Assembly (NCBI GenBank): GCA_902778565.1 | Contig: CACYYH010000010.1 | Location: forward strand, 1-44,110 | DNA length: 44,110 bases | From: an uncultured Eubacteriales bacterium | GTDB taxonomy: Bacteria; Bacillota; Clostridia; Peptostreptococcales; Anaerovoracaceae | Direction of reading: 5' to 3' | Shown here: positions 11,323-35,810 of the stretch, in pieces | Layout of the letters: each line of letters begins with the position of its first letter | Numbering within the stretch: the stretch's first letter is position 1 | Made by a program: the position numbers and the translations under genes | The notes under the pieces: generated by a model | The model's database searches: none | What the model was told of the DNA's origin: nothing | Seen by the model: the letters and a program-made list of their open reading frames with translations, nothing else

Positions 11323-12504
11323 TCAGAATTCCAGCGTATCTACCCTGTCCAGAATATCCAGGATGTGCGCCTTTGCATTTTCTATCTCAGCTCTGCCCTC
11401 TTCAGTATCGAAGCCGTTTCTTCTGATCCTGCGCCTCATGATCCTGGTGTAACCGATGAGCTGAGCCTTTTCCTCAACTTCTTTGAAACGCTCCTCATCA
11501 GGATCTCCCAGATAAAGCCTCAGGGATTCTTTCCAGAAGTGAACAGCAGTATCATAAGAAAGACCTATGAATTCCTCCACCTGATGATGATTAGTATCGG
11601 AGAAACCAACATAAGCGTTGTACATGCTGGCCAGCTCGAAGATCGGATATCCGTGGCAAAGAGTATCCATGTCGATGAGAAGAGCTTCTCCGTTCTGGAG
11701 CATGACGTTCTTGATATGATAGTCGCCGTGCATCATGTGCATGTCATCAGGTACAGCAGCTACGAGATCGTGAAGCTTCTTATATTTGTCCTCAGGGAGA
11801 TAATCTTTGAGGAAATCCGCCCAGTCGAGAGCAACGGCCTTCATATCGGGCATGGTGCCGGGTTTGATCTTTGTGGAATGGATGAGCTTCAGAAGTTCTA
11901 TGCTCATCGCGGCCACTTCGTCCGCATCCTTTTCACCGTTGATGATCAGCTTTGCAAAACTGGTTGCGTTCAGAAGCTCGAACACAGAACCATAACCCTC
12001 ACCGACTCTTACCACGTCGTAGGGGATAGCCGTGGGGATGCCCAGAACGAATGCTGCTCTTGCCAGCTCACGTTCTCTGTGGATCTCAGGAAGAGAATCG
12101 GGGTTCAGGTACACCTTGACGATGGTGTCCGGATCGATCCTGTAGACCTTACCGTTGGCTCCCTGTCCTATCACTTCACAGCCTTCCACTGAGATCACTC
12201 TGTATGCCTTCTGGATGTCCACCATCTCAGTGAATCCGGTCATATCGAAGATCTCATACACTTCAGGCTGAACGTTTATGATCTTAAGGTCCTTCATCTC
12301 TTTTCTGAGTCTCAGGATTATTCTTAAACCTGCACTGGAAATGTATTTCAAATCTGTTGCATCAAGGGTGAGCTGTGCCGGAGCCTCGCGGTCCATGGTC
12401 TCATTGATCTCCTTCTCCACTGCCGCAGCATTGGCGGAATCGATATGGCCCATGAGGTCTATGATCAGATGATCTCCATCCATCTTATAGTTTATATACT
12501 CCAT
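11323..12504 (-). CDS. STAS domain fused to an APH-like small-molecule/protein kinase
   Basis: Two-domain protein of 393 residues. Residues 1-105 form a STAS (SpoIIAA/RsbV-like) domain with the phosphorylation loop YISSAGL, in which Ser57 corresponds to the regulatory Ser of SpoIIAA. Residues 110-393 form an aminoglycoside-phosphotransferase-fold kinase: glycine-rich loop IGQGANGKVY, lysine in TIVKVY, catalytic loop MHGDYHIKNVM and metal-binding LIDMDT. The kinase part resembles the TIGR02172 group, whose substrate is unknown. As the last gene of the partner-switching operon, one base after the SpoIIE-like gene, it is the likely output: the STAS domain would be gated by the operon's kinase and phosphatase. 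Antibiotic resistance is not suggested by this context. Confidence 0.85.
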   Translation of the reverse strand: MEYINYKMDGDHLIIDLMGHIDSANAAAVEKEINETMDREAPAQLTLDATDLKYISSAGLRIILRLRKEMKDLKIINVQPEVYEIFDMTGFTEMVDIQKAYRVISVEGCEVIGQGANGKVYRIDPDTIVKVYLNPDSLPEIHRERELARAAFVLGIPTAIPYDVVRVGEGYGSVFELLNATSFAKLIINGEKDADEVAAMSIELLKLIHSTKIKPGTMPDMKAVALDWADFLKDYLPEDKYKKLHDLVAAVPDDMHMMHGDYHIKNVMLQNGEALLIDMDTLCHGYPIFELASMYNAYVGFSDTNHHQVEEFIGLSYDTAVHFWKESLRLYLGDPDEERFKEVEEKAQLIGYTRIMRRRIRRNGFDTEEGRAEIENAKAHILDILDRVDTLEF

Positions 12505-12505
12505 T

Positions 12506-14677
12506 TTACCCCTCCTGCATGTTCTTACGGATCTTCAGGATGTTCTGTCCGTTCTTGTATTCATACGTGATCTCGTCCATGGTCTTCTTCACCAGGAACA
12601 CGCCAAGACCGCCGACTTCTCTGTCTTCCGCATTAAGGGTGATGTCGGGTTCTTTTCCTGCCAAAGGATCGTAAGGTTTGCCGTGATCAATGAAAGTGAT
12701 AATTACCGCCATGGGATCGTCATCCACTTCAACTCTCACCGTCGCAGGTCCTGTCAGCGGATCGTAAGCATATTGTGCGATGTTTCCAAACAATTCATCG
12801 ACTGCTATATCGATCTGCATCTGAGCCTTCATCGGACATTCCAATGCTTCTAATTCCGTATTAATGAAATCTGTAACTATGGGAATATTGCCAACAGTTG
12901 CCTCAAGGGTCATTTCCTTCATGTATCTTCCCTCCCTTTGCTCTTCGCTGCTATCGGTGGCATCAGCCCCTGCATAGTATAAGCAAAGCATAGTTATATC
13001 GTCAAATTGCGGTGCGTCTCCAACAAAGACATCGACCGCATCGTTTACTCGTTCAAGTACGCCTTTAAGTTCAGGCGCCAGTCCGCTGTTCAAAGATTCC
13101 AGCAATCTTTTTGTACCGAACTGCTCGTTTTTTTCGTTGGCCGCTTCAGTAACTCCGTCGGTATACAGGAATACCTCTGATCCCGGTTTAAGCAGGACCT
13201 CATATTCCTTATACTCCATGCCTTCCATTCCTCCCATGACAAAGCCATGTCTGTCCCTGTAGAGTTCATATCTGCCGCCATGCTGCCTGATTATGGGATA
13301 CTCGTGTCCGGCATTTGCAGCGGTAAGCTTGCCGGTGCTCAGTTCCAGTATTCCAAGCCATGCGGTGACGAACATCTCCAGACTGTTGTTGTTACAGATC
13401 TGGTTATTCACCCTGGCAAGGATCTTGCCCGGTTCCGGGATGGCCATAGCAGTGGTCTTCAGGAGGATCTTGGAAGCCATCATAAACAGTGCCGCAGGAA
13501 TGCCTTTGCCGCTTACGTCGGCCATGATAATGCACAGATGATCGTCATCTATGAGGAAATAGTCATAGAAATCTCCTCCCACCTCTTTGGCAGGGATCAT
13601 GGATGCATAGACGTCGAAGTCCTTCCTTTCAGGGAACGGCGGGAAAATGGTGGGCAGCATATCTTCCTGGATGCGCTTTGCCAGATCCAGCTCGGTGCCG
13701 ATCCTTTGCTGCTCCTGAATGGCCTTGGTGAGATCCTCTTCGTAGGCGTTGAGATCCTTTTCCATGTCTGAAAGGGTGAAATAAAGATTCTCTATTTCAT
13801 CTCCTGTATCGATCCCCAGCCCTTTGAAATGGTTCTCTGAAAGTGTTCCTCCATCCTTCTTATCCTTTACGTAAGCCTCCGCGGCTTCTGCGATCATATT
13901 GATGGGCTCCACCATGTTCTTTCTTATATGACGTGACAGCAGGAAACCCAGAAGCAATACAGTCAGTACCGTAGCGATGGTATAAAGGATCGTAAAGCTT
14001 TGCATGCCGTGAAGCAGTTCTTCCAGAGACACGTCAGCAAGTATGAACGATGCGATACTTCCGTCATCGTTCATGATCGGAACGCCGGTGGTGCAAAGCC
14101 ATCCGTATTTGTCCGTGTAAGATATGTTGTATATCTCTGTCGAACCGTCGGAGTTAAGGAACTGGCTTATCTCTTTCGCCGTTTCTGCCTCCCAGGCTCC
14201 GGTACGGAGAGGTCTCTTGTCATCCGGATCTGCCACGTAGACCAGCGCCTGTGTTTCCTCATCGTACATGGCGATAAAGATATCATTCACGTCGCTGGAA
14301 GCGTAGTATTCCAGAAGGAAATCGATGACACGGGGATATACCTCTGACTTAGTCACGGTATCAAATCTGGCAAAATACTCGTCATCCTGCACAGCTCTTT
14401 CTTCATCTGAAAGGCTGTGATAAATGTCCAGAGTCTCGTTGCAGATATCTCTGACGTCTCCTACGTTTTCGATGACGCCTTCGGCATTCTTTGTGAGCTC
14501 AAAGGCCTCGTTTATATACTGGTTTCCCAGTGAATACACGTAAAGACCCAGGCCCAGTATCAGTGACATCACGCCCAGGATAAGCGAACCCATCAAGACT
14601 GCATGGAAGGTCTTGGCTTCAAGAGAATGACGTCTTCTCTCAAGCTCCGACATTTCCTTTATAGTCTTTTTAGGCAT
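12506..14677 (-). CDS. Membrane SpoIIE/RsbU-type phosphatase fused to an RsbW-like HATPase kinase
   Basis: A 723-residue signalling protein. A transmembrane helix at about 25-49, an extracytoplasmic Cache-like sensor (50-228), a second helix (229-248) and a HAMP plus coiled coil (249-340) lead to a PP2C SpoIIE domain (about 345-570). Its metal residues are visible: GGDFYD (D369), ADVSGKG (D387), YTDG (D507) and FDD (559-560). A C-terminal RsbW/SpoIIAB-like HATPase (590-720) keeps the N-box (E628, N632), IDHGKP (D664) and VGGLG (688-692). Phosphatase and kinase acting on STAS proteins are thus in one chain. STAS genes lie directly on both sides (10 bases and 1 base), which names the probable substrates. 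It likely sets STAS phosphorylation in response to an external ligand. Confidence 0.9.
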   Translation of the reverse strand: MPKKTIKEMSELERRRHSLEAKTFHAVLMGSLILGVMSLILGLGLYVYSLGNQYINEAFELTKNAEGVIENVGDVRDICNETLDIYHSLSDEERAVQDDEYFARFDTVTKSEVYPRVIDFLLEYYASSDVNDIFIAMYDEETQALVYVADPDDKRPLRTGAWEAETAKEISQFLNSDGSTEIYNISYTDKYGWLCTTGVPIMNDDGSIASFILADVSLEELLHGMQSFTILYTIATVLTVLLLGFLLSRHIRKNMVEPINMIAEAAEAYVKDKKDGGTLSENHFKGLGIDTGDEIENLYFTLSDMEKDLNAYEEDLTKAIQEQQRIGTELDLAKRIQEDMLPTIFPPFPERKDFDVYASMIPAKEVGGDFYDYFLIDDDHLCIIMADVSGKGIPAALFMMASKILLKTTAMAIPEPGKILARVNNQICNNNSLEMFVTAWLGILELSTGKLTAANAGHEYPIIRQHGGRYELYRDRHGFVMGGMEGMEYKEYEVLLKPGSEVFLYTDGVTEAANEKNEQFGTKRLLESLNSGLAPELKGVLERVNDAVDVFVGDAPQFDDITMLCLYYAGADATDSSEEQREGRYMKEMTLEATVGNIPIVTDFINTELEALECPMKAQMQIDIAVDELFGNIAQYAYDPLTGPATVRVEVDDDPMAVIITFIDHGKPYDPLAGKEPDITLNAEDREVGGLGVFLVKKTMDEITYEYKNGQNILKIRKNMQEG

Positions 14678-14687
14678 GTCGCCCTCC

Positions 14688-14984
14688 TTATTCGATGGTA
14701 AGAATATCGCTGAATCCTGTGATGTCGAAGATCTCCTTAATGACGTCGTTTACGTTTACGACCTTCATTCCGCCCTTCTGCGCCATCTTCTTCTGAGTGG
14801 CGAGGAGGATCCTGAGTCCTGCGGAAGACATGTATTCAAGTCCTTCGAGATCGAATACCAGCTCTTCAGCTTCATCCATGACTTCTGCCAGCTCTTCTTC
14901 AAGCGCGGGAGCTGTAGCGGTGTCAAGTCTTCCTTCTACCTTTACGTTAAGTACTTTCTCTTCCAATGTTTTAGTAACAGTCAT
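14688..14984 (-). CDS. Anti-sigma factor antagonist (STAS, SpoIIAA/RsbV-like)
   Basis: A 98-residue single STAS domain. The regulatory loop reads YMSSAGLRIL, with Ser54 matching the phosphorylated Ser of SpoIIAA. Such proteins bind HATPase kinases or their client regulators when unphosphorylated. AAAGGAG precedes the ATG. It sits between the SDF-like membrane protein and the phosphatase-kinase. No sigma factor gene is nearby, so the downstream client is not evident. The partner could be the HATPase domain of either neighbour. Confidence 0.93.
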   Translation of the reverse strand: MTVTKTLEEKVLNVKVEGRLDTATAPALEEELAEVMDEAEELVFDLEGLEYMSSAGLRILLATQKKMAQKGGMKVVNVNDVIKEIFDITGFSDILTIE

Positions 14985-15016
14985 AGTTTTACTCCTTTTG
15001 TTGATCTATAAAACAA

Positions 15017-16636
15017 TTACTTTCGCAATACATTAGTATCCAATGAATTCAGTCTGCTGGCTTCTCCGATCAGATCCAGCTGAAGCATGGCCTGATTCAA
15101 AGCAGATGAAGCGAAGCAGAAAATGATGTCGCATATGATGGCCATGATAAGAGCCTCCGACGGGATACCCAATCTGGAGAAAATGGCCACATATGCCAGG
15201 GTATCCACTCCGGACACCGGCGGGCTGGCTGCCTGAAGGGCAACTACCAGGATAACTGCCATGATGAGCCAGAGAGTGGAAATGGTTATGTTATAGCACT
15301 TCACCGCATAGAGGGTGCTTGCCATAAGGCTTACCGTGCTTACGGGCATGTAGATGACCAGTCCGAGAGGCAGTCCGTAATCTGCAAGCTTGCCGCTGAT
15401 GCCCAGCTTTCTCTCGCAGCAGAGACGGTTTTCACCGAAAGCCGCATCTACGCTGGCATTCTTGAAAGCGATGAGGAAAGAGGGTTTGATCTTTTCCCAT
15501 ACCTTCTTCGGCGATACCTCGTGTCTTCTGGAGGTGATCACCAGCTTGATCGCAAAATATATCGCCACAAATACGTGGAAGGTCAGAAGCGGGATCCATA
15601 TGGCCCTGAACCTTACGATGGTCCCATCCAGGATCCTGAAAGCCAGAAGGATCGCCACGAAGACCGGAATGATCCTGCTGATCCATTCAGCCACCAGAAG
15701 TCCCACCGAGTTGGCCTGGTTCGCTATCTTCACCAGACGGTCAGCCTGGTTTCCCAGTATGAGCAATGCGTTTCCTATGATTATCGCCAGAATGATCAGC
15801 TGAGGTGAATCAGTATTCAGGAAGGGCGATACCACGTCCCCGGGCACAAAGCCAAGGAAAGCTTCAAACAGGGAGATCACAGTATGTCTGACAGGAGAAT
15901 TTGTGAAATCAGCCCTGATCAGCAGCTGCATGATGATCGCAAAGACCACCGTCATGACCGTGCTGGAAAGAATAAATCTTCCGATGAGGCGCTTGCCGCT
16001 CTTGTTCATCAGAGTAGCGTTTCCGATACCGCATATGGCAGTCAGCACAGTGAAGAAAATTACCGGTCCTGCCGTTGCCTTCAGCAGTCTGAAGAATACA
16101 GCCTGCACAGGTTCGAAGAATGAGGTGGTCAATAAAGCTATTCCTTCGGTCGGCAGAACTCCTTTGGCGATAAAGCCCAGGAGAAGGCCTGCCACGATAC
16201 CCAGCAGCAGTCGTACGCCGGGGTTGATGTGAGGTCTTTCCAGTCTCAGATGAAGGATATTGACCCCTTTGATATAGTTATATCTGGGGCTGAGGCCTAT
16301 GTTGGCCATTACGGTGCCGATCCAGTCTCCTGCATCCAGCTCGCTGTCAGCTGACTGCAGAGGATCTACCTCTTCGCCCTTCAGTTCTATGTTTATTACC
16401 GGCCTGAAGAAAGTCTTGCCGGAATAGAAACTGACCTTGGGTTCCTCTCCCTTGGCAGAGAAGTGGTCGTACCACCTGAGCAGCGCCTCTTCCATGGAGA
16501 GTCTGATGCCCAGAACGTTTGCTCTGTCCATTCCCAGGGAATACAAAAACTCTTCCACTTTGGCGGCCATAAGGTCGATGGATTCTCCATTGAGTATGTA
16601 TTCACCGCTGAAATTTTCGTACTTCCTTACTGCCAT
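15017..16636 (-). CDS. SDF (dicarboxylate symporter)-like membrane protein with N-terminal degenerate HATPase domain
   Basis: A 539-residue fusion. Residues 1-135 look like an RsbW-type HATPase: SMEEALLRWYDHF aligns with the N-box but has Arg54 in place of Asn, and LKGEEVDPL aligns with DxGxPxDPL but lacks the Asp. ATP binding is therefore doubtful. Residues 138-525 have the SDF/GltPh fold with about eight helices and the matched stretch LGISGKLADYGLPLG. The NMDGT motif of the family reads YMPVS (429-433). In helix 8, by eye, GltPh D394 aligns with C507, R397 with S510, N401 with N514 and D405 with L518. Substrate carboxylate and sodium ligands appear lost, so it may be a receptor rather than a glutamate transporter. 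It is the first gene of the partner-switching operon. GGAGG precedes the ATG. Confidence 0.85.
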   Translation of the reverse strand: MAVRKYENFSGEYILNGESIDLMAAKVEEFLYSLGMDRANVLGIRLSMEEALLRWYDHFSAKGEEPKVSFYSGKTFFRPVINIELKGEEVDPLQSADSELDAGDWIGTVMANIGLSPRYNYIKGVNILHLRLERPHINPGVRLLLGIVAGLLLGFIAKGVLPTEGIALLTTSFFEPVQAVFFRLLKATAGPVIFFTVLTAICGIGNATLMNKSGKRLIGRFILSSTVMTVVFAIIMQLLIRADFTNSPVRHTVISLFEAFLGFVPGDVVSPFLNTDSPQLIILAIIIGNALLILGNQADRLVKIANQANSVGLLVAEWISRIIPVFVAILLAFRILDGTIVRFRAIWIPLLTFHVFVAIYFAIKLVITSRRHEVSPKKVWEKIKPSFLIAFKNASVDAAFGENRLCCERKLGISGKLADYGLPLGLVIYMPVSTVSLMASTLYAVKCYNITISTLWLIMAVILVVALQAASPPVSGVDTLAYVAIFSRLGIPSEALIMAIICDIIFCFASSALNQAMLQLDLIGEASRLNSLDTNVLRK

Positions 16637-16674
16637 TTTGCCTCCGAATGGACATACTAAGCCATTATGTATAT

Positions 16675-16683: not shown

Positions 16684-16753
16684 TATTTAAGTTAAAAATT
16701 CCACTGAAAACTGCTTATTCGCTCTGCTGAGTCAAAGTGCAGAAATAATAAAA

Positions 16754-16782
16754 GACCCGGCGGTCATTATCATCGCCGGGTC
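16754..16782 (-). terminator. Terminator of the ornithine fermentation operon
   Basis: GACCCGGCG (16754-16762) and CGCCGGGTC (16774-16782) form a 9-bp stem, followed on the minus strand by TTTTATTATTT. It comes 20 bases after the orr stop codon. Confidence 0.85.
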
Positions 16783-16802: not shown

Positions 16803-17894
16803 TTATTTTACGTATACCTTCTCAACGTAAGGAGATGTGGCCAGTTTCAGAACTGCGCCGTACTCAAGTTTGAAGCTTACCACGTCGCCCACCTTGTATT
16901 CCTTGTCTGACTTGGTCACGTCCAGGATGGTGTGGTCTGAAGATCCTCCCAGGATATCAACCTTAGGATCCAAAGGTATCATGCCGCCAAGATCGGTGTC
17001 CTGTTTACCCACTGCGATGATGGCGCGCTTGATGATCCCGCGGTCCTCATATTCGGGTTTTTCGCCGAATGCATCAACGCCAACTTCTCCGATGGGAAGA
17101 GAGGGCTTCTCTTTAAGTTCAACGATCTGTGCTTCCAGGATCAATGCATCGTCAACAGTTCCGGGAAGCTTGGTGAGGTATGCGGTATCGTTTCCCAGAA
17201 GGAAGGATTCCCCCAGTCTCAGGTTTGTGATGCCTTCCGGCAGCTCCTTCTTTTCTGCAAGATAGATGGATGAGGAGTTTCCTCCGGAGACCATCTTAAG
17301 CTTGATGCCGAATTTCTCTTCGATCTTGCGGGCAATGGCCACCAGTCCGCCCAGGTTGTCGGCCTTGGGGATGATGGCGCCGTAGCATGTAAGATTCACG
17401 CCTACGCCGTAAAGTTCGATGTTTGACATGCCGAGCACTTCAGCCACGGTGTTCATAATGGTGTCTTCGTTCTTAAAGAAGATGCCTTCTCTGAGGTCAC
17501 CCATGTCGATCATGAGGAGAACCTTGTGCACCTTGCCTGCCTTTGCAGCCTCTTCATTGAGAAGTCTTAAGGTGCTGAGTTCGGAGTTGAAGCTCAGGTC
17601 CACGTACTTGATCACGTCTGCCACTTCGCAGTGCATGGGTATCCTGAGAAGCACGGTCTCCTTCAGGTTCTCATGTGCCATTTCGTTAAACTTGGCTATA
17701 TTGGAAACTCTGGAGTCAGCCATGAAGTCAACCATGGGATGCTCTGCGATCATGCGGCTCACCACCGGATCCGCACAGAGGCTCTTGGTAACGATCATCA
17801 GGCTGTCGCACTTGCCGCCTTCCTTGGTGATCTTGGCCACGGCGTCAATGTTCGCTCTGAGTTTAGTCATATTCATCACAAGTCTGGGGTACAT
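16803..17894 (-). CDS. orr: Ornithine racemase (PLP-dependent, alanine racemase N-domain family)
   Basis: A 363-residue PLP enzyme with the alanine-racemase-type N-terminal barrel. It converts L- to D-ornithine, the substrate of ornithine aminomutase. The PLP lysine is in MIVTKSL (K37), and SGGNSSS provides phosphate contacts. The ATG at 17894 was chosen because AGGAG lies eight bases upstream. A longer in-frame reading to 17966 would run back through the end of the mutL-like gene and lacks a ribosome binding site. It is the last gene of the operon before the terminator, as expected for the C. sticklandii pathway. Closely related alanine/serine racemases exist, but the operon context makes ornithine very likely. 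Confidence 0.9.
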   Translation of the reverse strand: MYPRLVMNMTKLRANIDAVAKITKEGGKCDSLMIVTKSLCADPVVSRMIAEHPMVDFMADSRVSNIAKFNEMAHENLKETVLLRIPMHCEVADVIKYVDLSFNSELSTLRLLNEEAAKAGKVHKVLLMIDMGDLREGIFFKNEDTIMNTVAEVLGMSNIELYGVGVNLTCYGAIIPKADNLGGLVAIARKIEEKFGIKLKMVSGGNSSSIYLAEKKELPEGITNLRLGESFLLGNDTAYLTKLPGTVDDALILEAQIVELKEKPSLPIGEVGVDAFGEKPEYEDRGIIKRAIIAVGKQDTDLGGMIPLDPKVDILGGSSDHTILDVTKSDKEYKVGDVVSFKLEYGAVLKLATSPYVEKVYVK

Positions 17895-17908
17895 TTCTAT
17901 TTCTCCTC

Positions 17909-19759
17909 TCAATCCTCGTAGTTTGTGTTTCTCCATCTGCAGTGAGTGCGGTAGCAAAGCTTGCACTTGTGATCACATCCCGGCTTTGTAACGTTGGGAT
18001 CGTAATCCAGTTCTTCATCGCTGCCGGCTCCTTCATGATGTCTGTCGATACCGCTGGCTGCCTCCTGCGCAGCCTTGTACGCCTGCGACGGTGTCATGCC
18101 TGCGGTATCGGGCACAGCCACGCTTTCTGCCATGGCGTCCTTTGCGGTCCTCATGGAGCGGTCGTTCATCAGGGCTTCTCTCTTGGCAGCCTCCACCTCT
18201 TCTCTGGTAGCACCGCCGATGTTGCCCTTGAGAGACTCCTTGTACTCCGTCAGGTCGTAGCCCATGTCTTCCATCTCTTTGATGTGTTGCTGGAGTTCTT
18301 CCTGCTTTTCCTTGGAAGCCTTGGCCATGGACTGGAGTTCCTTGATGAACTTATCCTTCTGGATCTCCTCGTGACGCTCCTGAAGTTCCATTCCGAGGGA
18401 CTGACCGAGAAGCTTGATGGCTCCCTGTCTGTGAGTCTTGGAAAGAACTCCCAGAGATGCCATGATGTAGAAATTATCCACCAGTATCTTTGCTGCGTCT
18501 GAAGGATAGAGCTTCATGCCGGTCTCGTTGTCCTTGGCGATCATTTCCATGATCTCGACTCTATGAGGCAGTCTGGTAAGGGCTCCGCCGGTTCCAACTA
18601 TGTACTTGATCTGCGTAAGGTCCTTACCTTCAGCTACCGTGGTCCTTCCGGAAGGTCCGTATACGTATCTGATGGATCCTGCGTGTCTTTCCACGGCCTT
18701 TAATGTGGCCTCCTGGCAGAGTCTCTCAACCAGTTTGAACTCGTTTTCCTTCTTGGGGATGGCCACATAAGTGCTGAGTGTATCATCCAGATCGATGTGG
18801 AGCTTCTCATCACATTCTTTTCTGAGCTTTTCCTCACCTATGGATTCGATAACCTTATATCTGTTGACATAGAGTCCCAGGTCGCCTTCCACGGTACGCT
18901 TGGCTTTGGGCTCCGGCGCTATCAGAACTCTTGCGATGGCCTCGCTGTCCTCGGATACCGCGTGAACGTCAGTGGTGGCTCCGCCAACGTCTATGGTCAT
19001 TACCTCTCCCAGGCAGTCATAAAGCAGCTTCGTACATTCCATTACAGCACCGGGTGTGGGAATGATGGGACCGTTTACCATGTCTCTCACGTGCTCCATG
19101 CCGGGAGCCTTGGTGATGTTGTCCTCAAAGGCATCCTGAATGACTTTGCGGCAGGGTTCCACGTTAAGAGTGTCTATCTTCGGATAAACATTATCCACCA
19201 GGTAAAGTCTCTGACCGCTCTCCTCGTCGAAGATCAGCTTCATCTCCTCCTGGTTCTCTATGTTTCCGGCATATACAACGGGGGTCTTAAGGCCCATGGA
19301 ACGGATCATCTCCGCATTATATATCGCCGTATCTCTTTCTCCAAAATCAACGCCGCCGGCGATGAGGATCAGGTTGGGATTGATCTCTTTGATCTTGGCG
19401 AGATCCGTCCTTCTGAGTCTTCCGACGGTTATATTGTGAATGATGCCGCCTGCGCCCAAAGCCGCTTCTCTGGCAGCCTTGGCAGTCATATCATATACCA
19501 GACCGTGGACCGTCATCTTGAGTCCGCCGGCAGCTGATGACGTGGCAAGCATCTCATCGTATTCAAGTTCATCAATGCCCATTTTCGCTTTCAGGTCGTC
19601 GATGGCTCCCTGAAGGCCGATCCTGACGTCTCCCTCCAGAACTGAAGTCGGCGCCTGGCCCTGGGCCCAGAACTCCGGAGTGTCGGAATCCAGCCCTATA
19701 AAGGCATTTACTACGGTTGTTGTCGAGCCGATCTCGGCTACAAGTACGTCTACTTTCAT
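17909..19759 (-). CDS. MutL/GlmL-type accessory ATPase for the B12-dependent aminomutase
   Basis: A 616-residue protein of the GlmL/MutL family, an actin-fold ATPase group found with adenosylcobalamin mutases. The phosphate-1 motif VAEIGSTTT is at the N-terminus and a second, IDVGGATTDV, lies near 257-266. A helical, charged segment spans about 460-560. The C-terminal tail carries CDHKCKLCYRTHC, a Cys/His cluster that may bind metal. Position directly after oraE and before orr suggests it reactivates or loads ornithine 4,5-aminomutase, as glutamate mutase GlmL is thought to do. This role is inferred from context. The name glmL would imply glutamate mutase, which is not encoded here. Confidence 0.85.
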   Translation of the reverse strand: MKVDVLVAEIGSTTTVVNAFIGLDSDTPEFWAQGQAPTSVLEGDVRIGLQGAIDDLKAKMGIDELEYDEMLATSSAAGGLKMTVHGLVYDMTAKAAREAALGAGGIIHNITVGRLRRTDLAKIKEINPNLILIAGGVDFGERDTAIYNAEMIRSMGLKTPVVYAGNIENQEEMKLIFDEESGQRLYLVDNVYPKIDTLNVEPCRKVIQDAFEDNITKAPGMEHVRDMVNGPIIPTPGAVMECTKLLYDCLGEVMTIDVGGATTDVHAVSEDSEAIARVLIAPEPKAKRTVEGDLGLYVNRYKVIESIGEEKLRKECDEKLHIDLDDTLSTYVAIPKKENEFKLVERLCQEATLKAVERHAGSIRYVYGPSGRTTVAEGKDLTQIKYIVGTGGALTRLPHRVEIMEMIAKDNETGMKLYPSDAAKILVDNFYIMASLGVLSKTHRQGAIKLLGQSLGMELQERHEEIQKDKFIKELQSMAKASKEKQEELQQHIKEMEDMGYDLTEYKESLKGNIGGATREEVEAAKREALMNDRSMRTAKDAMAESVAVPDTAGMTPSQAYKAAQEAASGIDRHHEGAGSDEELDYDPNVTKPGCDHKCKLCYRTHCRWRNTNYED

Positions 19760-19785
19760 ATTCTTACCTATTATTTACTATAAAA

Positions 19786-19923
19786 TAAACAATAAGTATC
19801 GCTCAGGGCACTTTGGGATACCGGTTCTTAGCAATAGGCAAGGGGGTTCGCCCCTTGCCTGAGCTTAGAACCGCTGTTGGGCTCCCAAGTAGCGAGAGCG
19901 GCCAAGAGCGATACTTCATAGTT
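19786..19923. repeat. Nested inverted-repeat (foldback) element B
   Basis: Located between oraE and the mutL-like gene. Outer arms AAGTATCGCTC (19794-19804) and GAGCGATACTT (19906-19916) are perfect and extend imperfectly through AAAC/GTTT. Inside are CTTTGGGA/TCCCAAG, CGGTTCTTAGC/GCTTAGAACCG (19822-19832, 19863-19873, one mismatch) and a central 9-bp hairpin GGCAAGGGG/CCCCTTGCC (19837-19859). It shares GAGCTTAGAACCGCTG and CCGGTnCTTAGC, in the same order, with element A near 11.1 kb. No T-run follows on the minus strand, so transcription can pass. Confidence 0.75.
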
Positions 19924-19927
19924 TGTT

Positions 19928-22180
19928 TTAATCTTCCGGGTTAAGATCTTCCGGTCTGAATCCGTGAGGAACTTCTCCTCTTCTTCTCTGTCTCTCCTGT
20001 GCAAGGAAGGTAGCTACGTCGATACCGTGTGAGTTTCTGCCGAATCCCATGTCGATACCGGTCTTAACTGCTTCTTCAGGAATTACCTGAGTTCCGCCTG
20101 CGCAGATGATGATCTTGTCTCTGATACCCTTTTCGATAGCGAGATCGTTGATCCTCTTCATGTTCTTATAGTGAATGTTGTCGTGAGAGATGATGGTGGA
20201 AGCGAGGATTGCCTGAGCGTTCTCTTCGATGCAGGCGTCTACTATTTTTTCAACAGGAACGGAAGTTCCGAGGTATACGCACTCGATACCCCACTTCTCG
20301 ATTCCGCCGTGCTTGATGTTGATGATCTCGCGCATACCTACGGAGTGCTCGTCATCGCCTACGGTTCCGCAAACGACCTTCATGTGCTCATGTCCTTCGA
20401 ACTCTTCATAGAGTTCCTTGTCGGACATTACGTACGGTTCAGGAGGTACGTCGAGTGTGGTAAGGTCGATATCGAAATCAACTCTGCCCTTCAGCTCGAT
20501 TCTGGTACCTTCAGCTTCCTGCATAACTTCTGCATTGATAACTTCGGGGTTGACCAGCCCGAGTTTCTTACCGAGTTCTACAGCTGCAGCTTCAGCTACA
20601 CGCTTTTCAGCAGGGAGCATCATGGTGAGCATGATGACTCTGTCGCCGCACCACTCAACTTCAGGAGTGATGCACTCGCCTGTTCTGTACTTAGCAACCT
20701 TTTCAAGTCTCTTCTCTACGCAATCTTCAGGGTCAAGCTCGTCGATGAAGACGATCTTGGAGTGATCCTCGAAGGTGCAGCCGCCGATAAGGGCTGACGG
20801 ATTCTCAGGGTCTCCGCCGTACTGCTCAACGTTGTTATATCCGTAGTGAGCTGTAACAGGAGCCATATAGTCTTCGTCTCTAGGGAAGATGAAGCCTGCG
20901 CCGAATCCTCCGTCGATCTTACGGGCGATACCATCGCCGTTTCTTTCGGGATATTTTCCTGAGTCTACGAAGAAGCCTTCCTGAACGGCGTTGAAGTATC
21001 CGCCTACTTCAAGGATCTCTTCTACGTAAAGAACTGCTCTTTCCTTAAGTTCACGGGCGTTCTCTCTTAAAGGACCGTCCTTCTTAAGTTCGATCATGTC
21101 CATGATACCGTCTAAGCCGATCAGAGTCTGCTTAGCTGTATCGGTAGCTTCGATGTTGTAGATGTGCCAAGGTACGTTTCTTCCTTCGTCCGGTGTGATG
21201 GTGGACTGGATGTCTGCAGAAGTCAGCTTGGAAATGAACATGTTCATTACGTGAGTTACTGTAGCTTCACGAGTTGAGCTCTGGATGTACTTGGTGTTCA
21301 TCTGTGCTCTCATCTTGTACTTTCTCAGGAAGTCACGAAGGGCTACTGCATAAGGCAGGTCGAGATACATACAAGGAGCGGGAGTTGCTGAAGGAGGTAC
21401 TGTTGAAAGTGAGATCAGGTCAGGGCTGATACCAACTCTTTCTGAGAAGTAGGAGTTGATAGCGTGCTGTACGATGAGCTCGGGCATTACCTTCCAAGCG
21501 TCTCTTGCTGTAGCGTTGGCATTGTGAGCTCCGTCGATCTGGAGCATGCCGGACCAAGCCATGATCTTCTTGGATTCGCAGGCGTCTACGAAGGATCTTA
21601 CCATGTTAACGTCTCTGTAAAGTACGTTGTACTGAGGATCCTGGTGAGCACCGTTGATACCTTCTTCTGCGAACATTACAGCGATATCAGGTCCTGCAAC
21701 ACCGGAAATGTATGAATGGTAGTTGATAGGACGGCCGACTTCGTCCTCGATGAGGTCGATAGCCTTACGCTGTGCTCTTACCTGTTTACGTGTTACAGGA
21801 ACTCCGCCGATACCCTGAGGGGTACCTTCCATGAGTCCGTCGATGTGGGACTGACCCATGTGACGAATTACCATGAGGTGGTCAGCGCCGTGCCATGCTG
21901 CCATTCTCATACGGCGGATATCGTCTTCGAATCTTCCGGAAGCGATCTCAGTTGTGATGGTCTGCATCGGCTGAGGGTCGATATTGTCCAGGAATTTTGC
22001 GGGAGGAAGAGGAACGCTCTGCTTCAGAGGTTCTGACAGTTCATGATATTCGAACTGATACATATGCTGATCTTCAGCTCTCTTTCTCCATACCCAATTT
22101 CTTCTTCTGGGTTCATATTTGTCGAGGTCCTTGAGGATTTCAACGACATCGAGCTTTTTATTCTTCTTTAAAGGCTCCAT
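19928..22180 (-). CDS. oraE: D-ornithine 4,5-aminomutase, large subunit
   Basis: A 750-residue adenosylcobalamin- and PLP-dependent enzyme that converts D-ornithine to 2,4-diaminopentanoate. The C-terminal Rossmann-like B12 domain has the DxHxxG motif as DEHSVG (610-615), with H612 as cobalt ligand. K623 in NIKHGG lies 11 residues later, the spacing known for the PLP-binding lysine of this enzyme and of lysine 5,6-aminomutase. The TIM-barrel body precedes it. It is two bases downstream of oraS, its small-subunit partner. Full length, no sign of damage. Confidence 0.97.
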   Translation of the reverse strand: MEPLKKNKKLDVVEILKDLDKYEPRRRNWVWRKRAEDQHMYQFEYHELSEPLKQSVPLPPAKFLDNIDPQPMQTITTEIASGRFEDDIRRMRMAAWHGADHLMVIRHMGQSHIDGLMEGTPQGIGGVPVTRKQVRAQRKAIDLIEDEVGRPINYHSYISGVAGPDIAVMFAEEGINGAHQDPQYNVLYRDVNMVRSFVDACESKKIMAWSGMLQIDGAHNANATARDAWKVMPELIVQHAINSYFSERVGISPDLISLSTVPPSATPAPCMYLDLPYAVALRDFLRKYKMRAQMNTKYIQSSTREATVTHVMNMFISKLTSADIQSTITPDEGRNVPWHIYNIEATDTAKQTLIGLDGIMDMIELKKDGPLRENARELKERAVLYVEEILEVGGYFNAVQEGFFVDSGKYPERNGDGIARKIDGGFGAGFIFPRDEDYMAPVTAHYGYNNVEQYGGDPENPSALIGGCTFEDHSKIVFIDELDPEDCVEKRLEKVAKYRTGECITPEVEWCGDRVIMLTMMLPAEKRVAEAAAVELGKKLGLVNPEVINAEVMQEAEGTRIELKGRVDFDIDLTTLDVPPEPYVMSDKELYEEFEGHEHMKVVCGTVGDDEHSVGMREIINIKHGGIEKWGIECVYLGTSVPVEKIVDACIEENAQAILASTIISHDNIHYKNMKRINDLAIEKGIRDKIIICAGGTQVIPEEAVKTGIDMGFGRNSHGIDVATFLAQERQRRRGEVPHGFRPEDLNPED

Positions 22181-22182
22181 CT

Positions 22183-22545
22183 TTACTTTCCTCCTTTGAA
22201 CGCTGCGACTACCTTATCCCAACCTTCGCCCTTTGCGAGCTTAATGGATGCTTCGCGGATAGAGATGTCTTCTAATTTTGATAACTTATATACGCAGTGT
22301 CCTGCGCCTTTTCCCATGAGGCCGTGATCCATGCAGTGGTTAACGATGGGCTGTGTATCAAGGGAGGATACGCCCATTCTTAAGAGAACTGCACGCTCTA
22401 CGGATGGAGTGGTATTCTTGTAACCTAATTCAAGCATGGGTTCGTCTACCTGCCTGATCAGGTCCCAGAATCTGTCGTAAAGTTCTTCGTCGGTAAGATT
22501 TTTGAGATGTTCTCTTCTTACTTCGAAATCGTCTTCTCTTTTCAT
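22183..22545 (-). CDS. oraS: D-ornithine 4,5-aminomutase, small subunit
   Basis: A 120-residue subunit that forms a heterodimer or heterotetramer with OraE and lines the active site. The family pattern is seen in DDFEVRREHLKNLTDEEL and LDTQPIVNHCMDHGLMGKGAGHCVYK. AAGGAG precedes the ATG. An intercistronic hairpin at 22570-22596 separates it from ortB. Confidence 0.96.
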   Translation of the reverse strand: MKREDDFEVRREHLKNLTDEELYDRFWDLIRQVDEPMLELGYKNTTPSVERAVLLRMGVSSLDTQPIVNHCMDHGLMGKGAGHCVYKLSKLEDISIREASIKLAKGEGWDKVVAAFKGGK

Positions 22546-22569
22546 CCTTTTTCTCCTTACTACAGTCCT

Positions 22570-22596
22570 GCGTACGGAGTTCTCCCCTCCGTACGC
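22570..22596 (-). promoter_or_regulatory. Intercistronic hairpin between ortB and oraS
   Basis: GCGTACGGAG (22570-22579) and CTCCGTACGC (22587-22596) form a perfect 10-bp stem with a seven-base loop. It is followed on the transcript by the oraS ribosome binding site, not by a U-run. It is therefore more likely an mRNA processing or stability element than a terminator. Confidence 0.7.
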
Positions 22597-22619
22597 AAAA
22601 CCTGAAAATCATTTTTTAA

Positions 22620-24026
22620 TTAAAGACCAAGTGTCTCTTTTACGAAAGCAACGTCTTCCTTAACTTCTTCTGCAAGGTAAACGAGGTCTGCTTCGTTAGG
22701 TTCGCAGCCAGCCTTCTTAACAGCCTTCTTGATTCTGGACTGCTTGAAGTGCTTGAGGTCAGCAACTTTGTGCTTGATGAAGCTGGGATCCTTAGGCAGG
22801 ATCAGGTTGGTACCGGGCTTATCCTCTTCCTGAGGGTTGCCGAATCTTACGTCGATACCGTTTTCCTTAGCAAATGCCAGCTGAGGCTGGATGTGCTTGC
22901 CGGCTCCGGTGTATTCTGTTTCGGATACAACCAGAACTGCGTCTTCAGGAAGTTCCTGAGCAAGTGAGAATGCGCATGCAAGAGCAGTGTTGCCTGCAGG
23001 GCCTCTCTCAAGTCCTTCAAGGTTAGCCAGCATTTCAGTCATGTACATAACTTCGCCCTGAGTTGTGGTTACATATTCATCCATGTATCTCAGAGGACGA
23101 GCTGCTGAACGAGGAACGTCTGAGTGGTCGGGGTCAGTAGCATAAGGAACGCCGAATCCGGTATGTCCTGTTGTGCAGGACTTACGGTTGAAGTCAACGT
23201 CGGATGCCATTGAAAGTCCTGTCAGGTCGATGGAAGCAGCGACAACCTTGGTGTCCTTGCATCCGGCCTTAATAAGACCTCTTGCGGTACCTGTTACCAT
23301 TCCGCCGCCGGCGTTGGTGCAAACTACCATGTCAGGATCCTTGCCGATCTTTTCTCTGCACTGCATTGCGATCTCATATCCGAGAGTCTCAATACCTGCG
23401 ATGCCATAAGGTGAGTAAAGGGATGCGTTGAAGTATCCTGTATCCTCAATTACGGAAAGTGTGGTGTAGAAGAGCTCAGGTCCTACTGTGAGCTGGATAA
23501 CTTCAGCTCCGAGAGCCTCGCACTTTCTTGCCTTCTCAACGATCTCCGGCTGGCCTACGCCCTTGGAGTCGTAGCATTCCTGAACGATGATGCACTCAAG
23601 TCCCTGCATTGCTGCCTGGGAAGCAACTGCTGCACCGTAGTTTCCGGAAGTAGCTGCAACTACGCCCTTGTATCCGAGCTTCTTAGCGTGTGCTACTGCA
23701 CATGCTGCACGTCTGTCCTTGAAGGAACCGGAAGCGTTTGCTGCCTCGTCCTTTACAAAGATCCTTGCGCCATAGCCGGGCTTAGCGTACTTACGAGCGA
23801 AAGCGGTGATGTTTCTTAATTCAAGGAGCGGAGTGCTGCCCACGCCGGTCCTGGACTGGATTCTGTTGATCTCGTCGATAGTGTAGTTGGTAGCCTTCAT
23901 GAGGGCTTCGTAATCGAAAGCGACTGAACCTGATTCGAAAGGTGCATAGTCAAGTCCGAGAGCTTCTTTCATGATCTCATTGGATCTTCCCATTACGGAA
24001 TCATAATCTTTTGCAAGCTGTGCCAT
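22620..24026 (-). CDS. ortB: 2-amino-4-oxopentanoate thiolase, PLP beta subunit
   Basis: A 468-residue fold-type II PLP protein. It is the larger subunit of the thiolase that cleaves 2-amino-4-ketopentanoate with CoA to alanine and acetyl-CoA. The PLP lysine is K103 in ASGSFKDRRA, and TNAGGGMVTG resembles the phosphate-binding loop of threonine-synthase relatives. Its ATG overlaps the ortA stop by one base (TAATG), indicating translational coupling of the two subunits. Confidence 0.95.
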   Translation of the reverse strand: MAQLAKDYDSVMGRSNEIMKEALGLDYAPFESGSVAFDYEALMKATNYTIDEINRIQSRTGVGSTPLLELRNITAFARKYAKPGYGARIFVKDEAANASGSFKDRRAACAVAHAKKLGYKGVVAATSGNYGAAVASQAAMQGLECIIVQECYDSKGVGQPEIVEKARKCEALGAEVIQLTVGPELFYTTLSVIEDTGYFNASLYSPYGIAGIETLGYEIAMQCREKIGKDPDMVVCTNAGGGMVTGTARGLIKAGCKDTKVVAASIDLTGLSMASDVDFNRKSCTTGHTGFGVPYATDPDHSDVPRSAARPLRYMDEYVTTTQGEVMYMTEMLANLEGLERGPAGNTALACAFSLAQELPEDAVLVVSETEYTGAGKHIQPQLAFAKENGIDVRFGNPQEEDKPGTNLILPKDPSFIKHKVADLKHFKQSRIKKAVKKAGCEPNEADLVYLAEEVKEDVAFVKETLGL

Positions 24027-24328
24027 TACTTGTCACCTCCGCGTAAAATTTCTCTCAGTGTTCTGTCGATCTCAATGATCTCGGGAACGAACTCACCATA
24101 GCTGTGAGTGTAGTGAGGATTCTCCTCATAAAGAGTACCCTTTTCGATACGGCCGCAAGCAGTTTCAACGGTAACTTCGTCGCCTACTTCAGCGGATTCT
24201 TCCTGAAGGAAGCCCTTGGTCCACATCTGAAGATCTGAATTCTTGGTGTCCTCAGGGAGCTTTCCGGTTCTCTGCTCTGCTTTGAGTACGATGTTGTGGA
24301 TACGTACCCAGTCACCTTTTTTTGCCAT
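24026..24328 (-). CDS. ortA: 2-amino-4-oxopentanoate thiolase, alpha subunit
   Basis: A 100-residue partner of OrtB with the family pattern AKKGDWVRIHNIVLKAEQR and a C-terminal half containing ENPHYTHSYGEFVPE. The ATG at 24328 has AAGGAGG eight bases upstream. Starting earlier (24382) would translate the intercistronic hairpin. The subunit has no catalytic motif that I recognise and probably forms part of the active complex with OrtB. Confidence 0.94.
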   Translation of the reverse strand: MAKKGDWVRIHNIVLKAEQRTGKLPEDTKNSDLQMWTKGFLQEESAEVGDEVTVETACGRIEKGTLYEENPHYTHSYGEFVPEIIEIDRTLREILRGGDK

Positions 24329-24351
24329 TATTATTTCCTCCTTAGACATCC

Positions 24352-24375
24352 TGAGGCGGCATCTCTGCCGCCTCA
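24352..24375 (-). promoter_or_regulatory. Intercistronic hairpin between ord and ortA
   Basis: TGAGGCGGC (24352-24360) and GCCGCCTCA (24367-24375) form a 9-bp stem with a six-base loop. The ortA Shine-Dalgarno comes soon after and no U-run follows, so this looks like a processing or stabilising structure. Confidence 0.65.
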
Positions 24376-24401
24376 CGGACAATAGTTTTGATCTCTTCTG
24401 A

Positions 24402-25457
24402 TTATTTTACGATCTTCTTATCTTCGGAAATGAAGTTTCTGAAGTCACCCATGATAGCACGAGGAATAGGAAGGTCGATCATGGTCTTGAGACCGGGATC
24501 TGCGTTGATTACGAAAGGAATCATGTTTACGCACATAGCGATGGTTCCGAGTCCTCCCTCGATCTCAGGGGAGTTCTTCATGTTTACGTTAGGAGTTCCC
24601 TTGATGATTACATAGTCACCTGTCTGGATGCCAACCTGCTCGGGTTCGATCTGCTGAGGGTGATCCATGTGAACGGGGATGTTTCCGGTGAGCTTAGCTT
24701 CTGCTGTCATGGCAACGCCTGCGCAGGAACCTGCTGCTGCAAATCCGTAAGGGGACTTTCTGTCAACGTCAGTTGTGATAGGGTTCATATCCTGTGAGAA
24801 CTCTTCAACTTCAAGTCCCATACCTGCTGCCATCATGCCAACGGATTCTGCGAATCCAACGTGGCCGGACATTGTGTGGTTAGCCTTTCTCTCAAGGAAT
24901 TCCTCAACGGGGATGCCGATGCCCTGCTCATGCATTACGAGCGGTCCGAAAGGTGAAAGGGAGTTAACTCTTCTGGAAGTGATCTCTTCAACGTCTGTGA
25001 GAACGCCAGTCCAAACGAGAACAAGGAGGTCCATGATGTGACCGGGGTTAACGCCTGTTCCGAGGATGGAAACGCCGTTTTCCTTAGCGATCTTATCAAG
25101 TTCAGCTGCGAGTTCAGGATTCTGAGCTGCAGGGAATGCCATTTCTTCAGCGGAGGTGATGCAGTTGATCTTCTGCTCGAGGATGTATTTCATCTTCGGG
25201 AATGCTTCCTTTGTGAAGGAGTCTGTGCAAAGCAGAACGATGTCAGCAGCGCCGGGCTTGATGATGGATTCGTCCTGGATGATGACGTCAGGTCTGTCGC
25301 CTCTCTCGGTCTTGATGTAGTCATACATGGAAGTACCGATCTTCTTGTTTCTTCCAACTACTCCTACGATCTCAACGCCTTTCTTGTGAAGAAGCATGTC
25401 AGCCATGCCGCCGCCCATTGAGCCTAAACCCCAGATGATTACTTTTACGTTTTCCAT
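24402..25457 (-). CDS. ord: 2,4-diaminopentanoate dehydrogenase
   Basis: A 351-residue NAD(P)-dependent amine dehydrogenase that converts 2,4-diaminopentanoate to 2-amino-4-oxopentanoate and ammonia. The Rossmann motif is WGLGSMGGGMAD near the N-terminus, in the pattern of dihydrodipicolinate reductase relatives. The ATG at 25457 is supported by AGGAG eight bases upstream; a longer in-frame reading to 25505 is not. It is the first gene of the ornithine operon, about 100 bases after the predicted sigma-54 start. Confidence 0.95.
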   Translation of the reverse strand: MENVKVIIWGLGSMGGGMADMLLHKKGVEIVGVVGRNKKIGTSMYDYIKTERGDRPDVIIQDESIIKPGAADIVLLCTDSFTKEAFPKMKYILEQKINCITSAEEMAFPAAQNPELAAELDKIAKENGVSILGTGVNPGHIMDLLVLVWTGVLTDVEEITSRRVNSLSPFGPLVMHEQGIGIPVEEFLERKANHTMSGHVGFAESVGMMAAGMGLEVEEFSQDMNPITTDVDRKSPYGFAAAGSCAGVAMTAEAKLTGNIPVHMDHPQQIEPEQVGIQTGDYVIIKGTPNVNMKNSPEIEGGLGTIAMCVNMIPFVINADPGLKTMIDLPIPRAIMGDFRNFISEDKKIVK

Positions 25458-25567
25458 AGTTATTTCTCCTTTTTTAAAAAATGATTTAAAAGACTTGTTT
25501 ATCAAAGTCCGCTCTGCTTCAAAGGCACGTCGGAAACAGAGGGCCGAACTTTCATATTAATTATATG

Positions 25568-35446: not shown

Positions 35447-35788
35447 TTAAATTACGAAGATAATAAGTATTACAACGAGCAGCGCATAGATGATGGCTGT
35501 TTCGATGAATACAAGACCCAGCATGAATGTGGATCTGATCTTGCCTTCAGCTTCAGGCTGACGGGAGATGGCTTCAGAAGATTTGCCGGTGGCGATACCC
35601 ATGGCAACGGCTCCGCCCATGGCGGCAAGACCGATGGCGATGGCTGATGCCAGTCCTTTGTCAAATCCCTGTGCTGCTTCCGCGGTAGCTTCATCAGCGA
35701 AAGCGAGGCCGGTACCCATCATGAAGAATACTGCGATGATCGCAAATACCATAACTAATGTGAAGATGGATCTTGATTTTTTATTCAT
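35447..35788 (-). CDS. atpE: ATP synthase c subunit with signal-like N-terminal extension
   Basis: The c-ring proteolipid, 113 residues against the usual 70-90. The conserved part starts near residue 42. Helix 1 contains AMGIATGK, the loop is SRQPEA (75-80), and helix 2 carries the ion-binding Glu in FIETAIIYALL (E96). The extra first ~31 residues form a hydrophobic stretch ending GLAFA before DEA, like a cleavable signal peptide. Such extensions occur in some clostridial c subunits. The Gln that helps bind sodium in Ilyobacter c (helix 1) aligns with Met63, so sodium use is less likely, although Thr97 follows the Glu. Confidence 0.93.
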   Translation of the reverse strand: MNKKSRSIFTLVMVFAIIAVFFMMGTGLAFADEATAEAAQGFDKGLASAIAIGLAAMGGAVAMGIATGKSSEAISRQPEAEGKIRSTFMLGLVFIETAIIYALLVVILIIFVI

Positions 35789-35810
35789 TTTAATTTTCCT
35801 CCGAAAAATT

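Follow-up and report, generated by a model that had tools for sequence, protein, structure and literature searches.

Partner switches are textbook controls of sigma factors, and the RsbU/RsbV/RsbW and SpoIIE/SpoIIAA/SpoIIAB systems of Bacillus are among the described systems closest to the locus reported here. In excerpts of the published accounts of the SiaABCD system of Pseudomonas aeruginosa, the phosphatase SiaA and the kinase SiaB balance the protein SiaC, which in turn activates SiaD, a diguanylate cyclase (PMC7647112, PMC8457831). Excerpts of other papers describe SLC5/STAC histidine kinases such as CbrA, 'transceptors' whose single polypeptide joins a transporter domain to a signalling domain of GHKL fold (PMC13022988, PMC7096432), SulP/SLC26 transporters that carry a STAS domain (PMC8256260), and 5TMR-SpoIIE receptors, in which a SpoIIE phosphatase stands under a transporter-derived membrane domain (PMC11109136). 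Here we describe a four-gene operon on a 44,110-nucleotide stretch of contig CACYYH010000010.1 (assembly GCA_902778565.1) from an uncultured gut bacterium (Eubacteriales, Anaerovoracaceae); this whole stretch is referred to as the window.

The operon consists of four minus-strand open reading frames separated by 32, 10 and 1 bases (Table 1). Pfam assigned them, in operon order, to SDF; STAS; SpoIIE with HATPase_c_2; and STAS with APH. An earlier note, made from the sequence alone, had listed the same genes, order and spacings and had proposed a partner switch whose phosphatase carries an RsbW-like kinase of its own and which includes a STAS protein and a STAS-APH fusion. The Pfam matches and the intact ATP-site residues of the phosphatase-borne domain bear this out. 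The operon itself has no sigma factor gene, again as the note had said, and the six Sigma70_r2 matches in the genome all lie on other contigs. The operon, a variant form of partner switch, is real, conserved and modular, and the fold of its first domain, the dead ATP site of that domain and the genomic linkage of the parts are well supported; the wiring set out further below is what we infer from them.

The SDF protein and its N-terminal domain

Within residues 1-140 of the SDF protein, no Pfam family matched at E ≤ 1. A profile of this N-domain built from 18 relatives was aligned with operon-type HATPases by hhalign at 96.4% probability (E 1.3e-9, 111 columns). An AlphaFold2 model based on 85 relatives had a mean predicted local distance difference test score (pLDDT) of 87.4 and the element order strand-helix-helix-strand-strand-helix-strand-strand. 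When compared with known structures by Foldseek, all 17 matches at E ≤ 1e-3 were RsbW, SpoIIAB or UsfX/anti-sigma-F chains. Since the three methods agree, the fold inferred in the earlier note holds, and residues 1-137 are predicted to have the RsbW/SpoIIAB fold. The note would have abandoned its proposal had the N-terminal 135 residues lacked a HATPase fold; Foldseek found that fold.

The residues of the ATP site tell a different story from the fold. Among 85 aligned N-domains, the N-box Asn was present in 16, the GxG lid in 3 and the G1 Asp in none, and all three are missing from the window's own domain. The N-box Asn, G1 Asp and glycines were kept in six of six aligned operon-type HATPases. 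Near-invariant in the N-domain are the N-box Glu pair, E49 (82/85) and E50 (77/85), together with G87 and N126. Because the ATP-binding residues are gone, the N-domain is not expected to act as a second kinase, and it is probably a STAS-docking pseudokinase. The earlier note's HATPase domain thus stands as a fold but probably not as a kinase. Among the Foldseek matches are PDB entries 6m37, 1tid and 8ih8, which, judging by their titles, are complexes of an RsbW-type fold with a STAS protein. As RsbW-type folds bind STAS proteins, a STAS protein would be the natural partner of a pseudo-domain with a protein-docking role.

Variants of this architecture were seen in other genomes. Five SDF proteins (L095, L098, L104, L105, L112) are longer, at 747-760 amino acids, their pseudo-HATPase domain being preceded by about 220 additional residues; in L098, the one scanned, this extension had no Pfam match. 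Proteins of about 360 amino acids in four loci (L114:1981, L175:1820, L273:7637, L275:7892) match the N-domain profile and neither SDF nor MatE, and are perhaps another receptor type.

The model of the whole SDF protein matched GltPh, GltTk and EAAT transporters in Foldseek with a probability of 1.00. In SDF transporters the NMDGT motif serves sodium binding and coupling. Plain SDF loci keep NMDG[TS] at this site in 18 of 18 cases, and the window protein has YMPVS. Its residues in hairpin 1 (HP1) and transmembrane helix 8 (TM8), at positions that we take to be those of substrate residues, differ too. Because YMPVS replaces NMDGT, the window protein is probably not a sodium-coupled symporter of the standard kind. 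Across 94 extended SDF proteins, N-M/L-D is kept at the NMDGT site in 17 and lost in 77. It is kept in 1 of the 29 proteins with STAS within 5 kb versus 16 of the 65 others (Fisher p 0.018), and we considered whether its loss marks receptors linked to a switch. This was rejected: on the tree, none of six independent pairs differ, and therefore the loss belongs to clades and not to linkage.

The switch proteins, their recurrence and the exchange of parts

Both STAS domains of the window have an SSAGL loop, whose serine is presumably the phosphorylation site as in SpoIIAA and RsbV, and both score above the cut-off of the NCBIfam anti-sigma factor antagonist model TIGR00377. It is the SpoIIE phosphatase protein that carries the intact kinase domain of the operon, and its phosphatase site is intact as well. 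A Cache-like input, as proposed in the earlier note, could not be confirmed for this phosphatase, in which Pfam detected no Cache domain; dCache_1 was matched in 1 of 11 phosphatase sensor regions scanned by Pfam. A linked phosphatase in another locus (L139:1662-4481) has 5TM-5TMR_LYT fused to HAMP, SpoIIE and HATPase. Fifteen STAS-APH proteins were aligned, with a mean column identity of 65%; invariant among them are the SSAGL loop, K130, H259-G-D261-x-H263-x-K265-N266 and D278-x-D280. We take these to be the phosphorylation loop, the ATP-binding Lys, the HGDxHxxN catalytic loop and the metal-binding Asp residues, respectively. Judged by these residues, STAS-APH proteins are equipped as an active kinase of the APH fold would have to be. 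A search of the PDB for a solved structure resembling the APH part found none, all 11 matches at E ≤ 1e-3 covering the STAS part.

Conservation was followed in 349 genomes of the family and in samples of 341 genomes of the class and 164 of the phylum, the latter two including the window's own genome; related genomes, such as those of one genus, are not independent. The N-domain profile matched in 123 of the 349 family genomes at E ≤ 1e-3, some of these matches being ordinary HATPases, and in 80 at E ≤ 1e-12 among the matches listed. It matched in 17/341 genomes of the class sample at 1e-6 and in 5/164 of the phylum sample at 1e-10. SDF fusions were mapped in nine genomes of six other families (G561, G507, G516, G684, G658, G584, G690, G494, G621) and fusions in three genomes outside the class, and one locus outside the class (L269) has STAS, SDF and SpoIIE phosphatase genes in a row. 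A search for related loci returned three, two of which (L032, L033) are contigs of ruminant-gut metagenome-assembled genomes of the same genus and one of which (L034) is a 20% match to SDF only. Conservation beyond the strain, on which the earlier note had staked its proposal, was thus found across the family and beyond both the family and the class. Two genomes (G212, G200) have 10-12 N-domain profile matches each, a large paralogous set of which many copies stand without a nearby switch.

The extended SDF and STAS-APH loci that we mapped were picked among the best matches or for contrast, and are not a random sample. Within 5 kb of the 94 extended SDF proteins, STAS was found for 29, PP2C for 21 and STAS-APH for 18, and seven, the window's included, have STAS, PP2C, HATPase and STAS-APH all within this distance. 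Apart from the window, one genome of the genus (G006, locus L036) was seen to have exactly these four genes with order and strand unchanged; in the other loci, fusions, splits or rearrangements of the parts were seen. Co-conservation of all four genes, as raised in the earlier note, is therefore seen as recurrent linkage but not as a fixed set. Genome-wide counts are unaffected by the choice of loci and cover the matches listed. Of the 349 family genomes, 60 have both N-domain and APH matches, 20 the N-domain only, 35 APH only and 234 neither (Fisher p 1.5e-25, with related genomes not independent). An APH match lies within 6 kb of the N-domain in 22 of 105 listed matches, compared with about 0.7 expected by random placement in 2-Mb genomes; 3 of the 22 (G047, G200, G221) cover the APH part alone or nearly so.

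A second membrane fold is found in place of SDF. MatE with a C-terminal HATPase-type domain occurs in ten loci (L053, L138, L174, L175, L176, L178, L179, L231, L241, L242), and in nine of these STAS, STAS-APH or PP2C lies within 5 kb on maps read by eye. Of seven such C-termini, the N-box Asn is kept in four (L138, L175, L176, L178) and lost in three (L053, L174, L179). Three loci (L176, L178, L231) hold a full alternative unit of STAS, PP2C, STAS-APH-HATPase and MatE-HATPase. A switch cluster in L053 (518-7638) lines up genes for glyoxalase-like, MatE-HATPase, GNAT, dCache-HAMP-SpoIIE and HATPase proteins.

The surroundings of the kinase were read from 58 STAS-APH genes, a sample selected partly for absence of SDF. 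Their same-strand neighbours within 5 kb include STAS (37), PP2C (24), SDF (15), HD_4 (8) and MatE fusions (5); SDF lies on the opposite strand near three more, and a HATPase is fused or near in 42. A U32 peptidase (L209), a B12-dependent methyltransferase (L225) and a CWB2 protein (L216) beside STAS-APH were set aside as ordinary neighbours by their Pfam matches. HD_4 is fused to APH in five loci (L228:7035-8510, L247:7583-9061, L248:7477-8973, L140:11929-13407, L045:4462-6138), which possibly places a kinase and a hydrolase in one chain. The HDxxED motif is kept in 13 of 14 HD_4 sequences, Pfam confirmed HD_4 in all four scanned (L045, L210, L228, L231), and two (L218, L228) match SpoT/RelA NCBIfam models below their cut-offs. 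RelA_SpoT genes adjoin STAS and PP2C-HATPase in L045 (6147-7217) and L177 (6348-7433). A quick tree of STAS-APH proteins places those of the window and L036 together with the HD_4-linked L218 and L227, with 97 support in the Shimodaira-Hasegawa-like approximate likelihood ratio test (SH-aLRT); some very long branches lie outside this part of the tree. The SDF label changes 8 times on this tree versus 14.9 in shuffles.

Proposed wiring and its alternatives

We favour a sigma-independent partner switch with a transporter-fold receptor and an APH kinase output, a reading to which we give an even chance. The SDF protein would be a transporter-fold receptor, or transceptor, and the ligand or the transport state of its SDF part would alter the hold of the pseudo-RsbW domain on the unphosphorylated STAS protein. 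The STAS serines would be phosphorylated by the RsbW-type domain on the phosphatase fusion, whose SpoIIE domain, controlled by its own membrane sensor, would strip this phosphate. The phosphorylation and docking states of the two STAS domains would then set the activity of the APH kinase, whose target may be a small molecule or a protein. Several observations weigh against this reading. Sixty of the 94 extended SDF proteins lack all four partners within 5 kb, and 20 of the 80 N-domain genomes have no APH match among the matches listed, in assemblies that are fragmented. One genome of the set (G003) has an SDF and STAS pair without PP2C and STAS-APH (L035), and carries STAS-APH-HATPase on another contig (L214). 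Two minimal clusters (L038, L085) consist of STAS, HATPase and SDF with no phosphatase or APH nearby, an arrangement that suits SDF as output as well as input. With the tree taken into account, loss of the NMD motif does not go with linkage.

The main rival makes the SDF protein the output. The transporter, for amino acids or other substrates (in other loci a MATE exporter), would be gated by a STAS protein binding its HATPase-like domain, and the APH kinase would be a second output. We regard this as unlikely, though less so than the other alternatives. The minimal clusters have no other output, and the extended SDF proteins that keep N-M/L-D suggest that some of them are probably still transporters. 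However, N-M/L-D is missing in the window protein and in 28 of the 29 STAS-linked ones (an effect of linkage that disappears on the tree), and the presumed substrate residues of HP1 and TM8 in the window protein differ as well. It is very improbable that the N-domain itself, by means of an ATP site of unusual make-up, continues to act as a STAS kinase. The near-invariant Glu pair, G87 and N126 and the N-box Asn of 16 domains would suit such a kinase, but no domain has the G1 Asp, the glycine lid is missing in 82 of 85, and the operon already has an intact kinase; with these ATP-site residues lost, a second active kinase was dropped.

Two further proposals concern what lies downstream. The operon's STAS proteins could free an anti-sigma factor encoded elsewhere, and so control a sigma factor in trans. 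The genome has its six sigma factor matches, and on contig C3 a HATPase_c_2 gene (35541-35900) stands directly before one of them (35936-36145). That sigma factor, however, already has this adjoining HATPase of its own, the most tightly linked STAS is fused to a kinase, and the operon itself, which is what this check covered, is without a sigma factor. As the genome's HATPase-sigma pair sits on another contig, control in trans is the less likely reading, and we consider it improbable. Alternatively, the output could be the metabolism of alarmones or nucleotides, the APH kinase working with an HD_4 (SpoT-type) hydrolase and in some units with a RelA_SpoT synthetase, and the window copy having lost its nearby HD_4. 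The HD_4 neighbours and fusions with their largely conserved HDxxED motif, the Pfam and NCBIfam matches, the RelA_SpoT genes of L045 and L177 and the grouping of the window STAS-APH with HD_4-linked ones all point this way, and the HD_4 and RelA_SpoT links are a hint of a nucleotide or alarmone as the APH substrate. Yet HD_4 is near no more than 8 of the 58 STAS-APH genes and absent from the window's unit, and the window's genome offers a full RSH protein and one short 28-bit HD_4 match, nothing more. HD_4 proteins can, moreover, have other phosphate-ester substrates. We find the alarmone output doubtful as it stands; it can hold together with the partner switch and transporter-fold receptor that we favour.

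A broader, tentative reading, on the doubtful side, is that the operon represents a general class of Bacillota receptors that is not known to have been described. SDF proteins with N-terminal and MATE proteins with C-terminal RsbW-type domains would be plug-in inputs to a sigma-independent switch, which would act through a STAS-gated APH effector, with an HD_4 hydrolase in several lineages and sometimes a RelA_SpoT synthetase. Partner-switch parts would here be wired to a metabolic-type kinase, with SDF or MATE exchangeable while the switch stays. If true, nutrients outside the cell would be coupled, directly through such receptors, to a kinase/hydrolase pair whose target is a nucleotide-like or other messenger, and the receptors would define a transceptor class outside two-component systems. 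Many 'SDF' and 'MATE' proteins of gut Clostridia that are so far uncharacterised would also gain a function, and STAS-APH and HD_4-APH outputs would become testable directly with purified proteins.

Operon surroundings and comparison with known systems

The coordinates of the operon and its features are collected in Table 1.

Table 1. Features of the four-gene operon and its upstream boundary, in window coordinates
Feature	Position	Strand	Basis
Membrane protein of SDF fold, 539 aa, with pseudo-RsbW domain at N terminus	15017..16636	-	Open reading frame; Pfam SDF 5.3e-38; AlphaFold2 model resembles GltPh/GltTk
Degenerate HATPase (predicted RsbW/SpoIIAB fold), residues 1-137 of SDF protein	16226..16636	-	hhalign; Foldseek; ATP-site residues gone
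SDF (SLC1-type) membrane domain, residues 141-514	15095..16216	-	Pfam; YMPVS at NMDGT position of plain relatives
Single STAS protein, 98 aa, SSAGL phospho-Ser motif	14688..14984	-	Pfam STAS 3e-17; TIGR00377 ant_ant_sig above cut-off
Membrane phosphatase-kinase fusion, 723 aa	12506..14677	-	Open reading frame; Pfam
N-terminal sensor region of phosphatase, residues 1-330	13688..14677	-	No sensor domain by Pfam
SpoIIE (PP2C/PPM) phosphatase domain, residues 377-566	12980..13549	-	Pfam 1.6e-46
Intact HATPase_c_2 (RsbW-type kinase), residues 592-718 of phosphatase fusion	12524..12904	-	Pfam 1.2e-17; N-box Asn, G1 Asp, G2 glycines
STAS-APH fusion kinase, 393 aa	11323..12504	-	Pfam STAS and APH
STAS domain of STAS-APH fusion, residues 3-99	12208..12498	-	Pfam; SSAGL invariant in 15/15 aligned
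APH kinase domain of STAS-APH fusion, residues 110-298	11611..12177	-	Pfam; catalytic residues invariant in 15/15 aligned
Probable terminator, GC-rich hairpin (16782-16754) and T-tract between ornithine cluster and SDF gene	16743..16782	-	Sequence
GGAGG ribosome-binding-site-like sequence before SDF ATG	16641..16645	-	Sequence

An ornithine-fermentation cluster ends 166 bases upstream of the operon. Because a GC-rich hairpin followed by T's separates this cluster from the SDF gene, the operon is probably transcribed as a unit by itself. A terminator scan listed the hairpin stem on the plus strand only, with a scan total equal to the shuffled mean, and promoter and terminator consensus scans gave sites no commoner than in shuffled sequence. 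The cluster (16803-25505, minus strand) encodes Orr, a GlmL-related protein, OraE, OAM_alpha, OrtB and 2,4-diaminopentanoate dehydrogenase, and is adjoined by a PAS-Sigma54_activat-HTH_8 regulator (25791-27176, minus strand). In L035 and L036, too, the SDF gene comes after genes that match these in their sizes. The position of the cluster hints at a possible amino-acid ligand. A defence system was rejected, since a search of the four window proteins against PADLOC at E ≤ 0.01 gave one weak STAS match (0.0077) and nothing else.

In the open-access literature we found no description of SDF/MatE-HATPase or STAS-APH fusions, nothing on TIGR02172 or on MatE with HATPase_c_2, and, among the papers listed, nothing on a dicarboxylate symporter with an anti-sigma link; this is weak evidence, limited to open-access sources. 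One paper that brings up HATPase_c_2, SpoIIE, STAS and transporters together does so in passages that list dCache_1 output domains. The APH part of the window matches the APH-like family TIGR02172 at 99 bits, below the 228-bit cut-off. Like the Bacillus partner switches, the operon has a STAS antagonist, a HATPase_c_2 kinase and a SpoIIE-type phosphatase with a membrane sensor, and the pseudo-domain is predicted to share the fold of RsbW and SpoIIAB. Unlike them, it has no sigma factor, its kinase is fused to the phosphatase, a second STAS is fused to an APH kinase, and a transporter-fold protein bears a degenerate copy of the kinase fold. As excerpted, the SiaABCD system provides the precedent of a partner switch that acts on an enzyme rather than on a sigma factor. 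The window phosphatase matches the SiaA model weakly (64.6 bits, cut-off 700), and the operon differs from SiaABCD in its transporter-fold input and its STAS fused to an APH effector; Pfam found no GGDEF domain in the four operon proteins.

The transporter-linked systems offer further comparisons, drawn from excerpts of their descriptions. The 5TMR-SpoIIE receptors find a counterpart in the 5TM-5TMR_LYT of the linked phosphatase of L139, whereas the window has no 5TMR domain and the excerpted text of PMC11109136 mentions no SDF/HATPase fusion. SulP/SLC26 transporters resemble the window SDF protein in that a transporter bears one half of a STAS/HATPase pair, but there the half is STAS and here it is the HATPase. 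CbrA-type proteins likewise join a transporter to a GHKL-fold signalling domain; they combine SLC5 with a histidine kinase and a response regulator, in contrast to the SDF domain, predicted pseudokinase and putative STAS partners of the window.

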